From a virus: a DNA stretch of 20,691 nucleotides. The notes under the pieces are model-generated. The model saw nothing but the letters and a program-made list of their open reading frames with translations. It was not told the origin of the DNA and did no database searches. The DNA lies in IMG/VR virus record IMGVR_UViG_3300030108_003797, positions 1 to 20,691 of that record; one strand, 5' to 3'. The translations under genes and the position numbers were made by a program. Every line of letters starts with the position of its first letter. Positions within the stretch are counted from its first letter, which is position 1. This document shows positions 1 through 20,446 of the stretch, one piece after another.

Positions 1-1451
1 CAGTTCTCTGCTGACTTATTTCGGTAGCTGATCATGGTGTAATCGTCCGGAAAACCCTGCAGCCGCTCACATTCTCGCGGTGTCAGCCTTCTGACGCTCA
101 AGCCTTGGCGCAAATAGGTTGTCTGCTTCATGCCGGGGTCTGCAGACAAAGCGCCTGAGTACGGCATTTCTCTTACTTCATCGCGCGAATTTTGAGCGAA
201 GCCAGCCGTGGGAACTAATCCTGCTCCGCCTTGCGAAAATATTTCTTGATCTGAATATCCTGGCGATCCTGACACGCTCGCACCAGAATTGAGAGTTGGG
301 TGGGGATTGTCTAGCGTATCCCAATGCGAGCCATGAGCAACCGCTTGTCCGTTTGCAGAGTCCAGGGTGTAGGCGGTCTCTTCTGAGACGCCGCGACCGT
401 TTGCGTTGGTATTGGCAGTCTGTAGCGCCACGGCCTGACTACCGCCTCGAGAATCGAGGCAGTAGGCAGACCCATCGTCGATATAGTCCTTGCCCTGCGG
501 CCCCGCCTCTGGCTTTCTGCCAACGCAATGAGGGTGAATTGCTATAGCCATAGGATCAGCCGCCCTCAACGAGGGTGACACGTCTTCTCCTGCTGCGTGT
601 GCATCGCCACCCCCAGCGGTTGATTGAAAAGCCAGCGGCGTCTGTCCCTCGTTTACCTCTGTGTTAATGCCTTTACTCATGCGGCTTGTCAGTGTGTTGG
701 CGGTGTCCGGTAGATAAACCGGCAACAATGGGGTTCCTCTGCCCGTGCCATCTTCACTCGCATCGAAGCCTTCACCTCGCAGTGTGTGAGCAGTTCCGAT
801 AGGTATCATGGCTTCCGCTTCTACTCGCTCGTTCCCTGTGCGACTGAAAGGAGGGCCGACCGTAACTGCGGGGGCAACTCTTTCCCCTTCCTGTCTGCGC
901 GGCGCAGGATGCCCTTGCAGGCTGTGGCGCTCAAAGAGTACCGCGGCGGCAGGTCGCCAATCTCCAGAATATCCGACAACGAAGACGCGGCGGCGCCGCT
1001 GGGGAACTCCGAAGTACTGAGCATCAAGGATTCTGTAGGCCCACCCATACCGGAGTTCGGCCAAGCCTCCGAGGAAGGCGCCAAAGTCCCGTCCTCCATT
1101 TGAAGACAACACGCCAGGGACGTTCTCCCAGACCAGCCAGCGGGGCCTTTTTCTGTCAGCCAACCTAAGATATTCGAGCGCCAGGTTACCGCGCTCATCG
1201 TCCATTCCCCCTCTAAGTCCTGCGACACTGAAGGATTGACAGGGGGTTCCTCCGACAAGAAGGTCAATTGATCCATAATCATCTGCTCCGATAGTCGTGA
1301 AATCGCCGTGTAGCGGCACATCAGAATAATGATGCTCTAGCACTCGACGCGGAAATTCTTCTATTTCTGAAAAAAAAGAAGGCACCCAACCAAGTGAGTG
1401 CCAAGCGGAAGTAGCGGCCTCAATGCCGCTACAGACTGAACCATACCTCAT
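1..1451 (-). CDS. DNA (cytosine-5-)-methyltransferase, partial (3' end outside window)
   Basis: The gene transfers a methyl group from S-adenosylmethionine to C5 of cytosine in DNA; in phages this usually protects against restriction or marks phage DNA. The frame is open from ATG at 1451 to the left edge, about 483 codons. Family motifs appear in order: motif I SVCSGIEAAT near residues 5-14 with FSEIE following, the catalytic loop GGTPCQSFS with Cys71, ENVPG starting at Glu109, QRRRRVFVVG starting at Gln151, and RRLTPRECERLQGFPDD around 454-470. The last motif, normally followed by a GNS motif, is cut off. About 300 residues separate the QRRRR and RLTPREC motifs, a long target-recognition region with recurring phrases such as AYTLDS, AYCLDS, ANTLTS and AHTLRG. 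The ATG is chosen for the AAGGA eight bases upstream and because motif I follows at once. It is the last visible gene of a minus-strand operon. The recognition site cannot be read from sequence. Confidence 0.96.
   Translation of the reverse strand, partial: MRYGSVCSGIEAATSAWHSLGWVPSFFSEIEEFPRRVLEHHYSDVPLHGDFTTIGADDYGSIDLLVGGTPCQSFSVAGLRGGMDDERGNLALEYLRLADRKRPRWLVWENVPGVLSSNGGRDFGAFLGGLAELRYGWAYRILDAQYFGVPQRRRRVFVVGYSGDWRPAAAVLFERHSLQGHPAPRRQEGERVAPAVTVGPPFSRTGNERVEAEAMIPIGTAHTLRGEGFDASEDGTGRGTPLLPVYLPDTANTLTSRMSKGINTEVNEGQTPLAFQSTAGGGDAHAAGEDVSPSLRAADPMAIAIHPHCVGRKPEAGPQGKDYIDDGSAYCLDSRGGSQAVALQTANTNANGRGVSEETAYTLDSANGQAVAHGSHWDTLDNPHPTLNSGASVSGSPGYSDQEIFSQGGAGLVPTAGFAQNSRDEVREMPYSGALSADPGMKQTTYLRQGLSVRRLTPRECERLQGFPDDYTMISYRNKSAEN
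821..1276 (-). CDS. Alternative-frame ORF nested inside the cytosine methyltransferase gene (possible dual coding)
   Basis: A 151-codon ORF runs on the same strand as the methyltransferase but in another frame, from ATG at 1276 to TAG at 821. It begins MDQLTFLSEEPPVNPSVSQD and contains CSLSDILE-like text (here SSLSDILEIGDLPPRYSLS) and GILRRADRKGKELPPQL. GGAG lies nine bases before this ATG; the frame is open further up to an ATG at 1321 but without a better ribosome-binding site. It covers the PCQ, ENV and QRRRR motifs of the host frame, so its sequence is strongly constrained by the methyltransferase. From memory, very similar proteins are deposited as hypothetical proteins from many phages and prophages, which may reflect real translation or repeated automatic annotation of a conserved shadow frame. 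No domain or function is recognised. It is listed because of its length and start site, with low confidence that it is expressed. Confidence 0.35.
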   Translation of the reverse strand: MDQLTFLSEEPPVNPSVSQDLEGEWTMSAVTWRSNILGWLTEKGPAGWSGRTSLACCLQMEDGTLAPSSEAWPNSGMGGPTESLMLSTSEFPSGAAASSLSDILEIGDLPPRYSLSATACKGILRRADRKGKELPPQLRSALLSVAQGTSE

Positions 1452-2630: not shown

Positions 2631-3350
2631 TCATTTAGATAACAATAGCTTAGTGCGCTCTTTCAGCCGATCTCGGTCATACAGCCAGAAAACCAGAAGA
2701 TAACGATCGCCTCGGGCGACCGGCAACCCGCGGTGCAGTTTTGTAAATGATGGGAAGATGAGCGCGTGCCCGGTAGGCAGCGGCTTCAGTTTGCCAGCGC
2801 CGTGAAACTCTGTTCCGCCGCCGTCGTAGTCACCGCTATTCAGTGGCACCACGACACTGATGTCTGCGCTTTCATCATGGTGCCAGGCGCCCTGTTGCTT
2901 GTCGCGGATGTTGTAGTTAGCCAGCTGTATTGAGGCAATGTCTGCACAGTTGCGCTGGTAGAGCTGAAAGAAGATTGGCTGCAGCACGCTTCGCACACAG
3001 AAAAACATGGTCCGGTAGAGCTCGGGCACTTTGTCTTTCAGCACGATCTCTGGGATTTGTCGCAGCTGGTCCTCTTCATCATTGACCTCGAAGAGCCCCA
3101 TCTCCTTCATCTCTTTTATCTCTTCGACCAGCATTTTGCAATACTGCCGACGAAGCAGCGGTGCCCGGTAAATATCTGGGAATAGTTTTTTGATGTGCGA
3201 CTTGATCGGCAGCTGCTCGAGATCCTCCATCCCGCGGCTTGCTTGATATCTTGCAATCATGGGCAATGATGCCTGCGCTGCCTCATACACTGGCTGATGC
3301 ACCATCCAGTGGGATCGCATCGAAAGCAAGTAATTATCGAACTTGTGCAT
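2631..3350 (-). CDS. 2-oxoglutarate/Fe(II)-dependent dioxygenase (prolyl-4-hydroxylase-like)
   Basis: The predicted activity is oxidative hydroxylation using 2-oxoglutarate, O2 and Fe(II); the substrate is unknown. The C-terminal half shows the double-stranded beta-helix signature: His157 and Asp159 in WHHDES as the HxD pair, DYDGGGTEFHG at 174-184, GHALIFPS at 194-201, distal His206 in KLHRGLP, and Arg216 in GDRYLLVFWL as the likely 2-oxoglutarate ligand. All iron ligands are present. The N-terminal ~110 residues are helical and not recognised. The 239-aa length is normal for phage members of this superfamily. The ATG at 3350 has no clear ribosome-binding site (upstream TTGGCAC is weak). It is the first gene of the minus-strand operon that ends in the DNA methyltransferase, and lies divergent from a regulator candidate. 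The GGGTEFH and HRGLP context fits the P4H type better than the TET/JBP type. Confidence 0.9.
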   Translation of the reverse strand: MHKFDNYLLSMRSHWMVHQPVYEAAQASLPMIARYQASRGMEDLEQLPIKSHIKKLFPDIYRAPLLRRQYCKMLVEEIKEMKEMGLFEVNDEEDQLRQIPEIVLKDKVPELYRTMFFCVRSVLQPIFFQLYQRNCADIASIQLANYNIRDKQQGAWHHDESADISVVVPLNSGDYDGGGTEFHGAGKLKPLPTGHALIFPSFTKLHRGLPVARGDRYLLVFWLYDRDRLKERTKLLLSK

Positions 3351-17749: not shown

Positions 17750-18301
17750 CTATCTCCCGTAAAGGCCGCTCTTCGTGCTTGACGGTGGACGCATGTTTCG
17801 TTTCACGCCGCCCTTATTGCCGCCCTTGGTTTTCATGGCGCCGCCTTTAGCCATTCCCTTAGACTTCATCATGCCGCCTTTAGCCATTCCTTTAGACTTC
17901 ATCATGCCGCCTTTGGCCATGCCCTTAGTCTTCATGGCACCGCCTTTAGCGTAACCTTTGGACTTCATGGCACCGCCTTTCTTCATGCCCTTGGTTTTCA
18001 TGGCACCGCCTTTCTTTTTTGTTTGAGCCTTTTTCATTCGGTCCCTCAACTTCTTTGAGTCCTTTTTACTGAGAGAGCTATCTACGTCTTTAGCAATCCC
18101 TGAGCCAATATTTTTCATGGCTCCTTCTAATTCTTTCTTAGTCATCGCAGCCCCAGTCACACTGCGTAACATTTTCTCGATTTTTTTACGCTCAGCCTCT
18201 GGGAGGGCAGTCACGTCAACAACGGTTTTTTTCATTGTGATTTTTTTTGCCGGCCCTTTTGACGCACCGCCTTTCTTCATGCCTTTTGCTTTCATCTTCA
18301 T
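17750..18301 (-). CDS. Lys/Gly-rich repeat protein, 183 aa
   Basis: Extremely basic. Residues 1-24 are Lys-rich (MKMKAKGMKKGGASKG). Residues ~27-95 form a helical region (VVDVTALPEAERKKIEKMLR, AMTKKELEGAMKNIGSGIAK, KKDSKKLRDRMKKAQT). Residues 97-162 are six tandem 11-residue repeats of the form KGG(A/M)MK(T/S)KGMA, and the tail KGGVKRNMRPPSSTKSGLYG is again basic. There is no signal peptide. ATG 18301 has GGAG nine bases upstream; the stop abuts the next gene. Similar MKKGG-repeat proteins occur in many marine phages without known function. The charge suggests binding to DNA or to acidic virion surfaces, which is inference. The neighbour upstream also carries GMKKGGSAKKGG, so the two may share a partner or origin. 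Confidence 0.8.
   Translation of the reverse strand: MKMKAKGMKKGGASKGPAKKITMKKTVVDVTALPEAERKKIEKMLRSVTGAAMTKKELEGAMKNIGSGIAKDVDSSLSKKDSKKLRDRMKKAQTKKKGGAMKTKGMKKGGAMKSKGYAKGGAMKTKGMAKGGMMKSKGMAKGGMMKSKGMAKGGAMKTKGGNKGGVKRNMRPPSSTKSGLYGR
17816..18013 (-). repeat. Six 33-bp tandem coding repeats (11-residue Lys/Gly units)
   Basis: Six in-frame units code for KGGAMKTKGMK, KGGAMKSKGYA, KGGAMKTKGMA, KGGMMKSKGMA, KGGMMKSKGMA and KGGAMKTKGGN. Units four and five are identical at protein level and nearly so in DNA, which suggests recent duplication. Copy number is likely to vary by slippage or recombination. Confidence 0.9.
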
Positions 18302-18973: not shown

Positions 18974-20446
18974 TCACTTTCTCGAAGCTGGTATTCGGGC
19001 GGACAAGCCGCCAGAATCGGGCAAATTCATAGGCGGTATCGCTGTCAGGCGACGCGGGTCACTAATGATTCTGCGACCACCCGGTGGACGTGGCATTGGC
19101 TCTCTATTGCTAAAATCATCAGGCGCTTGGTATCCGATAGACTCCAGATAGTCGGCGATTTGCTTTTGCAGTGCCGTCAGGTCGAAATTGCCGCCAAAGA
19201 TGCCAGGTATTCCTTGCGCTCGGATGCCGTCAATTGCCTGCTGCACGCTGTCGGCCACTGGTGGAGATGCGTCTGCCGCTTGTGTCGCCCCTTGAACCGT
19301 CCCGAGCGTGTTGAGGAAAGCTTGCCCTGGGCTGGTGGGTGCGATATCAGACGTCAGCTGCTGGTCGGTTTCCTCCAACGGTACAGGAGTGCCGACAGGC
19401 ATTGTGGTAACTGTTCCAGGTTCTTGAGCGCGCATAAACTCTGCATATTCCGCGTTAGTGACCATGCCGTCATTATTCAAATCGTAGCCCTGCTGAATGC
19501 CGTAGCTCTGCTTGGCTAAGGCTTCTAGGCGCGTCATCCCGCTATCCATCAGCTCTTGAATCCGTGACTCAACTCCAGTGAAGTCTGGATTCATTGACAT
19601 CTGAAACTCAGCGTTTGTCACAACGCCGTCATTGTTGATGTCATAACCCTTAGAGATGGAGCGTAGTTGTTGCTCTAAAGCTTCCTCTCTAGTCAGCCCT
19701 TGCCTGCTAGGGTCCATCAGCTGCGCGATACGATCATCTAGATTCGCTCTTGGATCGTCAGCGCCGAGAACAGGTACGGGCTCGGGAGTTGGGGTAGATT
19801 CCGGCGGCGCCTGTGGTGTGGAGCGATCAAACACGGGCCGACTAAAATACTCAGCAAAACCCTCATAAGGGCTGCGAGAGCCGCCATACTCCAGCATTGC
19901 TTCTCTCATTACAGCAGAAGCGTCGGGGCCAAATAAAGATTCTTGCGTGGCGGGAGGCATGATGGGCATGGTGGATACCTCATCGCGATCATCAATCCCG
20001 TTGCCATTATCGTCAATAAATCTCATGTCGCGAATCATACCGCCCTCTTGCATGCGCATCGGCGGAGGCTGCATTTGACGCCGATCAGCGATTCTGTCTG
20101 CCGCTCGCCTTCTTGCCAAAATCTGTTCTATCAGACTGCTTATTCCCAATCCGCTTGATGAGCGAGCTGGGGGACCAAAGTTAAACGGGCCCGGGACAAA
20201 GGGCTCGGGGCCGCTAGAAGGCGGTATAAACCCTAGTCCAAGCTGATTACGTCCGCCCGTTGGAGAGGGCATTCTTGTGGGGCCGGGGCCACCCAAATTA
20301 GGTGGCATCTGCCCAAGTCTAGGTCCGCCAGTAGGCGGGCTTACTCTTGTGGGGATGTATGGGTTCCGCGGACTCGGTGGCATGTTTGGATTCATCAACT
20401 GCGTGCCGGGCGCTGATTGTCTTGCCATATTTGTAAAAAATCCCAC
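18974..20446 (-). CDS. Pro-rich protein with three EF-hand-type calcium loops, 490 aa
   Basis: Residues 1-95 are Pro/Gly-rich and likely disordered. A short helical segment (SSLIEQILARRRAADRIADR) precedes the first loop, DDNGNGIDDRDE at 145-156, which is atypical at position 8. Loops two and three are canonical: DINNDGVVTNAE at 269-280 and DLNNDGMVTNAE at 322-333. Each is preceded by a related helix (LTREEALEQQLRSISKGY and MTRLEALAKQSYGIQQGY), so residues 238-281 and 294-334 are a tandem duplication. The C-terminal part is again Pro-rich. Calcium binding is inferred from the loops. The start is GTG 20446 because GGGAG lies seven bases upstream; an ATG at 20428 is the alternative but lacks such a site. 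No known phage virion protein was recognised with certainty; context suggests a structural or assembly role. Confidence 0.8.
   Translation of the reverse strand: MGFFTNMARQSAPGTQLMNPNMPPSPRNPYIPTRVSPPTGGPRLGQMPPNLGGPGPTRMPSPTGGRNQLGLGFIPPSSGPEPFVPGPFNFGPPARSSSGLGISSLIEQILARRRAADRIADRRQMQPPPMRMQEGGMIRDMRFIDDNGNGIDDRDEVSTMPIMPPATQESLFGPDASAVMREAMLEYGGSRSPYEGFAEYFSRPVFDRSTPQAPPESTPTPEPVPVLGADDPRANLDDRIAQLMDPSRQGLTREEALEQQLRSISKGYDINNDGVVTNAEFQMSMNPDFTGVESRIQELMDSGMTRLEALAKQSYGIQQGYDLNNDGMVTNAEYAEFMRAQEPGTVTTMPVGTPVPLEETDQQLTSDIAPTSPGQAFLNTLGTVQGATQAADASPPVADSVQQAIDGIRAQGIPGIFGGNFDLTALQKQIADYLESIGYQAPDDFSNREPMPRPPGGRRIISDPRRLTAIPPMNLPDSGGLSARIPASRK

Follow-up and report, generated by a model that had tools for sequence, protein, structure and literature searches.

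A gene nested in the +1 frame of phage C5 cytosine methyltransferases probably encodes a second chain of the enzyme

The window analysed here, a virus record of 20,691 bases, carries at one end a C5 cytosine DNA methyltransferase (MTase) gene in which a second open reading frame is nested on the same strand. The sequence evidence presented below indicates that the nested ORF is a genuine gene. It most likely encodes a small second (beta) subunit of the same C5-MTase, a reading to which we assign a probability of about 0.7. The nested gene would most likely be translated from its own ATG at position 1276, with its own Shine-Dalgarno sequence, on the MTase mRNA, and its product is expected to bind to the MTase and to be needed for methylation.

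The MTase (alpha) occupies the main frame at positions 1..1451 of the minus strand, beginning at ATG 1451 and running off the contig after motif IX. It matched PF00145 with an E value of 7.1e-48, the best stretch aligning residues 2-166 to model positions 2-166; motif X would lie beyond the contig end, and the motifs are otherwise present. The nested gene (821..1276, minus strand) consists of 151 codons and a TAG stop (823-821) in the +1 frame of the MTase, and counted from ATG 1321 the same ORF has 166 codons (821-1321, minus strand). Both versions agree with the preliminary description of this DNA, as does the GGAG that it placed nine bases before ATG 1276: the Shine-Dalgarno-like four-mer was found at 1286..1289 on the minus strand (read 1289-1286), 9 nt 5' of the start. 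The nested ORF had also been said to overlap all the catalytic motifs of the MTase. The overlap covers MTase residues 59-209 and includes motifs IV (PCQ), VI (ENV) and VIII (QRRRR), but motif I lies upstream and motif IX (RRLTPRECERLQGFP, about window 42-95) is likewise outside. Motif IX, given as VRRLTPRECERLQGFPDD at 42..95 on the minus strand, stands in the MTase frame, unlike in EcoHK31I-type enzymes. In 40 relatives, the position of ATG 1276 is occupied by ATG in 27 and by TTG in 4, and that of ATG 1321 by ATG in 12. ATG 1276 was considered the better start because ATG or TTG is kept there more often and because it is there, and not at ATG 1321, that synonymous constraint begins to rise.

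Elsewhere in the window, a 2OG-Fe(II) oxygenase-like protein (phrog_61, E 9.7e-25) is encoded at 2631-3350 on the minus strand, separated from the MTase by three listed ORFs. The same strand encodes a protein rich in lysine and glycine, in which MKTKGMKKGGAMK-like units recur and which has no Pfam match (17750-18301), and a phage protein with EF-hand-like calcium-binding loops (18977-20446; EF-hand_1 E 1.1e-5, just under the cut-off).

Two options had been put forward for the nested frame, a frame held open by constrained motif codons and a genuine overprinted gene, and a stop-depletion test against codon-shuffled controls and a test of synonymous-site constraint had been proposed. For these analyses, MTases were gathered with the MTase protein alone as the query, so that the nested frame played no part in the selection. 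The stop test covered MTase residues 62-200 in 55 non-redundant MTases, with 500 within-gene shuffles of synonymous codons that kept the MTase protein. No stop was found in the +1 frame of the 55 MTases, compared with 152.4 ± 10.2 in the shuffles (minimum 123), and the frame was open in 55/55 MTases against a shuffle mean of 4.6 and a maximum of 11. The +2 frame of the same MTases contained 338 stops, with 260 expected.

Synonymous constraint was measured as codon identity at conserved residues relative to expectation, using 40 MTases and 755 divergent pairs. The ratio was 1.09-1.26 in the blocks 5' of the nested start, the last of which includes nested codons 1-2, and 2.10 in the ten codons that follow. 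Within the nested ORF it ranged from 1.33 to 2.72; it was 1.45 in the block containing the nested end and 0.93 beyond it. The constraint therefore spans the nested ORF from start to end. In addition, among changes that alter the MTase, the ratio of nonsynonymous to synonymous change in the nested frame (dNN/dNS) was 1.38 in an upstream control region and 0.30 in the nested frame overall, with 0.77 for nested residues 4-92, which are weakly constrained, and 0.14 for residues 93-146. At MTase residues 179-204, conservation was higher in the nested frame (0.571) than in the main frame (0.343). Possible loss of the ATG and GGAG in homologues was also examined. The start together with the Shine-Dalgarno four-mer was retained beyond chance, in 24/40 window-type MTases versus 6.2 ± 2.1 in shuffles, and the start codon alone in 33/40 versus 21.8. 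Stop depletion, synonymous constraint and retention of the start with its Shine-Dalgarno sequence all speak for the overprinted gene, and the sequence evidence says that the nested ORF is real and under selection at the protein level. The statement in the preliminary description that near-identical translations have been deposited from many phages was not confirmed.

Depletion of +1-frame stops was also found in other MTase groups. Firmicutes-type MTases had 1 stop versus 53.1 ± 6.0 (22/23 open), Javan246-type 0 versus 60.2 (12/12 open), and L578-type 0 versus 146.4 (26/26 open). L382, a Firmicutes-type gene, is a true exception with a stop inside the nested ORF. P1-type MTases had 9 stops versus 60.6 ± 5.9, and 15/17 were counted as open; in one exception, L008, the stop lies directly 5' of the nested ATG, and in the other, L468, the counted stretch lies within an intein. 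Since both sets of stops fall outside the nested ORF, all 17 P1-type nested ORFs are intact. The start with the Shine-Dalgarno four-mer was present in 23/23 Firmicutes-type MTases (4.2 in shuffles) and 7/17 P1-type MTases (0.9). The start codon alone was found in 23/23 Firmicutes-type (15.8) and in 15/17 P1-type MTases (13.3), the latter not beyond chance. In the four further groups, synonymous constraint peaks over the nested C-terminal part (up to 2.4-2.8) and then falls towards 1, with few cells 3' of the nested ORF in the Javan246-type. Constraint over the nested N-terminal part is weak in the P1-type (1.06-1.49 in most blocks). As a control, 14 C5-MTases taken from genomes contained 68 stops versus 74.5 ± 6.1; L524, the sole open gene among them, comes from the same Aeromonas genome as L234 and is itself a member, and the other 13 show the expected stops.

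Two observations on these groups lie outside the nested ORF. Residues 1-40 of the Firmicutes-type MTases (L331-L410) show an unexplained raised synonymous identity of 1.41-1.67. The main ORF of L468, a P1-like dmt, has 1096 codons and is interrupted at the catalytic cysteine by an apparent intein (..GTPC FTAGHMVL ... VVHN CQAFS..), and the nested ORF downstream of it is intact; in sixteen more P1-like loci the match to the query begins at residue 78, which fits the same intein insertion.

The C-terminal part of the nested protein points to what the product may be. Nested residues 90-129 (890..1009, minus strand) were aligned by hhalign with the segment that follows motif VIII in canonical C5-MTases (FP....LKDILEEEVDEKYYLS.K). 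In canonical enzymes this segment lies in the main frame 3' of motif VIII, as RLKDILEEEVEEKFYLSKK in L570 (example stretch LKDILEEEVEEKFYLS) and RLKDVLELEVDEKYYLSET in L571. Bacillus phage vB_BhaS-171 (L577) has SLLDILEEEVPEKYFLSER in the nested frame, and its main frame has motif VIII followed by something else. An HMM of ten canonical main-frame segments, seven of which were reached via a consensus typed partly from recall, was searched against 37,401 ORFs of other loci. It gave 113 matches at E <= 0.01 (99 distinct sequences). No main frame was among them, and 110 had been called as nested ORFs; of the other 3, L273 looks by eye like a nested domain and L559 and L563 do not. Sixty of the matches came from loci found with the Firmicutes-type MTase query, 43 from the C-domain query of viral contigs and ten from elsewhere. 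The reach of this HMM is confined to Firmicutes-type and deeper nested ORFs: no locus of the window- or P1-type query was matched at E <= 0.01 (best 0.11 and 2.4), and the window's own nested protein gave an E value of 38.

Profile-profile comparison reached further. The nested family A6 matched the ten canonical segments in hhalign with a probability of 90.5% (E 1.4e-6), the Firmicutes-type nested profile with 95.3% (E 2.4e-8), 76 window-type rows (residues 100-129) with 71.2% (E 3.7e-5) and 8 P1-type rows with 15% (E 0.0017), and the Firmicutes-, window- and P1-type matches all fall at the same place. Between the window- and Firmicutes-type nested profiles the probability was 99.9% (E 9.9e-38); the kinship of their main frames contributes to this figure. 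With Dcm-type MTases alone the hhalign signal was weak (P 0.065 and 0.028), and with a mixed set of eight sequences it was not significant (P 0.24). Judged from the HMM matches and these profile alignments, the nested C-terminal segment is homologous at the family level to the canonical C5-MTase segment after motif VIII.

An AlphaFold2 model of the nested protein, built from 146 aligned sequences, had a mean pLDDT of 66 and a pTM of 0.33 for the whole protein. Block pLDDT was 81-97 over residues 111-150 and 59 over residues 101-110, and helices were predicted at residues 100-106, 117-130 and 136-148 (833..979, minus strand). The model thus suggests a confident small helical C-terminal part, with the rest poorly defined. 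A Foldseek search with this model returned no structural match (best E 3.4), a PDB sequence search with the nested protein returned nothing, and Pfam and NCBIfam searches of nested proteins gave no convincing family. Among PHROG families, phrog_16143 (139 positions) matched 51/59 nested proteins and phrog_1008 matched 7/59; both are labelled 'DNA methyltransferase', a label that may stem from the overlapping gene. The phrog_16143 matches imply that some depositors probably annotated the nested frame.

The distribution of the domain was surveyed in 328 C-domain loci with 295 distinct nested sequences (the best 80 of 199, 349 and 577 confirmed loci, plus loci from an MTase query). An open MTase frame with motif VIII was present at 320/328; at the remaining 8 the motif varies, the locus is masked or cut, or, in L303, the MTase frame is not open throughout. 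No stand-alone homologue outside an MTase was found among the 328 loci. In L303 (2746-3519) the nested frame runs into MTase C-terminal sequence and the MTase frame stops within or after the domain, which reflects either a natural split of the gene or a frameshift in the record. A tblastn search with the nested protein gave 115 phage records and 527 plasmid records, 448 of the latter from Escherichia. In the window and the loci compared with it, among the matches listed, the nested protein aligned to the +1 frame of the MTase with no internal stop. Among 274 genomes of one class, the only whole-domain match besides the starting genome was L508, where the domain is nested, and four others were short pieces. 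In the P1 genome (NC_005856), a nested ORF of 157 codons lies at 66728-67201 in dmt, with GGAG 7 nt before its ATG, and does not appear in the feature list of that region.

In a tree of 49 MTases, the window-, P1- and Firmicutes-type enzymes fall in one clade, so the five groups do not represent five independent origins. The nested layout requires 5 changes on this tree, at least 3 of them forced, and more than one gain or loss is thereby implied. L508 and L552 group with the main nested clade in a set of 22 rows (support 100/100). L508 encodes a 302-residue MTase without motif IX, together with a nested ORF of 182 codons that carries the C-domain and then motif IX. Its C-domain was detected with a profile E value of 9.1e-7 and a tblastn E value of 1.1e-7 (a one-sequence search), and it matched the Rctr41k nested frame at E 4e-13. 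L550 and L552 are like L508, with the domain and motif IX nested and a main frame without motif IX; in L550 motif I is also in the nested frame, perhaps owing to a frameshift in the record.

That there is no gene, and that the frame stays open and looks alike merely through constrained MTase codons, was rejected and has a negligible probability. The nested sequence is partly dictated by MTase motifs (GKTSP, for example, arises from WENVP), but shuffles that preserve the MTase give 152 stops where 0 are seen, synonymous constraint stops where the nested ORF ends, and stops are as frequent as expected in 13 further C5-MTases that share these motifs; dNN/dNS and the retained start add to this. 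A more serious rival accepts the gene and takes its product to be an accessory protein separate from the enzyme, one that would modulate the host or restriction. We regard it as unlikely, yet as the main alternative, for the coding evidence would fit any real protein and the nested proteins match no Pfam family. Against it stand the family-level homology of the C-terminal segment to a canonical C5-MTase segment, the 320/328 domain loci over which an open MTase frame with motif VIII runs, and the nested chains of L508, L550 and L552, which bear MTase motif IX as well as the domain.

The +1 frame could also be reached by programmed frameshifting inside the MTase, yielding a fusion. The nested segment is indeed MTase-like, canonical enzymes have it after motif VIII on one chain, and the L303 nested frame extends into MTase C-terminal sequence. 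However, the nested SLSDILE shares its bases with main-frame motif VIII (RVFVVGY), and a single fused chain could hardly hold both of these and the usual linker. Moreover, constraint rises at the nested ATG, and the start with its Shine-Dalgarno sequence is conserved. Frameshifting was accordingly ranked low and appears very improbable.

A second subunit of the MTase is the explanation we prefer. Homology of the nested C-terminal segment to the canonical one is the reason for reading the product as a displaced piece of the enzyme. The nested C-terminal domain would supply, in trans, the canonical segment between motif VIII and the target-recognition region, and the main chain would supply motifs I-VIII, the variable region, IX, and X (beyond the contig end). 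By analogy with the small chain of M.EcoHK31I, the nested chain would complete the small domain of the MTase, and loss of the nested product should abolish or change methylation. With the displaced segment encoded by the same bases as motif VIII, the main and nested chains would be interlocked; an ancestral deletion with a frameshift as the source of this arrangement is speculation. The preliminary description had guessed at a product that is expressed with the MTase and modulates it. This comes close to the favoured reading, but the homology of the C-terminal segment leads us to prefer a part of the enzyme over a modulator. For the further suggestion of an action against host restriction as such, no evidence emerged. 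A point against the subunit model is that an MTase of canonical type, which has the segment in its main frame, can do without a nested gene.

On balance, we lean towards a broader interpretation, in which a large share of phage-borne C5-MTases would be two-subunit enzymes, including Dmt of phage P1 (whose C5 activity is suspected according to the record note). Their second subunit would be an unannotated +1-frame gene across the catalytic motifs that arose when the post-VIII segment moved out of frame, and the EcoHK31I-type enzymes would represent one branch of this ancient arrangement. The abstract of PMC9927249 states that few long overlapping genes of prokaryotes are fully established, and the present gene recurs in five C5-MTase groups, phage P1 dmt among them. 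If the interpretation is true, two interlocking parts of the same enzyme are encoded by a single piece of DNA, a testable case of such coding; many phage MTase genes would then have two products, and codon-optimised or recoded copies would lose one of them. With M.EcoHK31I as an example, C5-MTases of two chains are a known kind of enzyme. The new elements are the occurrence in five groups, P1 dmt among them, evolutionary evidence of coding in the nested frame, a form whose main chain retains motif IX, and an identity for the nested segment; no description of this nested gene was found among the matches listed in the open-access literature.

Of the known systems, M.EcoHK31I is the precedent for an enzyme of two polypeptides. 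Its small polypeptide is reportedly read from a frame nested in the gene of the large one (Lee et al. are said to have described this in 1995), and such a second ORF nested in the other MTase frame is found in the window. M.EcoHK31I (YGGCCR) is described in passages of PMC3404938 and PMC3439449 as a two-polypeptide C5-MTase; according to the former, its large chain carries motifs I-VIII and X and the recognition domain, and its small chain carries motif IX. The window differs in that motif IX is borne by the main chain, the nested chain stopping short of it. Because motif IX stays in the main frame, the window is regarded as a variant of the two-polypeptide type. L508 and L552, with a nested chain of C-domain and motif IX, share the described EcoHK31I arrangement, a likeness by layout only.

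Other methylases offer partial parallels. The ShiLan domain, an out-of-frame HNH hidden in phage methylases according to part of PMC11855218, resembles the nested gene as an out-of-frame ORF within a phage methylase gene, but is there presented as a mobile homing-endonuclease insertion off the MTase core and not as a subunit. One phage m5C MTase is reported, in a passage of PMC5537653, to be inactive in E. coli. M.AquI likewise has two chains forming one C5-MTase and, as outlined in part of PMC3404938, is split in the variable region after motif VIII. The small chain of M.AquI comprises the distal variable region and motifs IX-X, whereas the nested chain of the window would supply a short post-VIII segment and, unlike in M.AquI, the main chain runs on past the supplied segment. 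Finally, the canonical C5-MTases of Riemerella phage CRP5 (L570), L571, a Pectobacterium phage (L572) and RB43 (L576), and the Dcm-type L514-L516, have a post-VIII segment homologous, at the family level, to the nested C-domain; unlike the window, they carry it in the main frame of a single chain.
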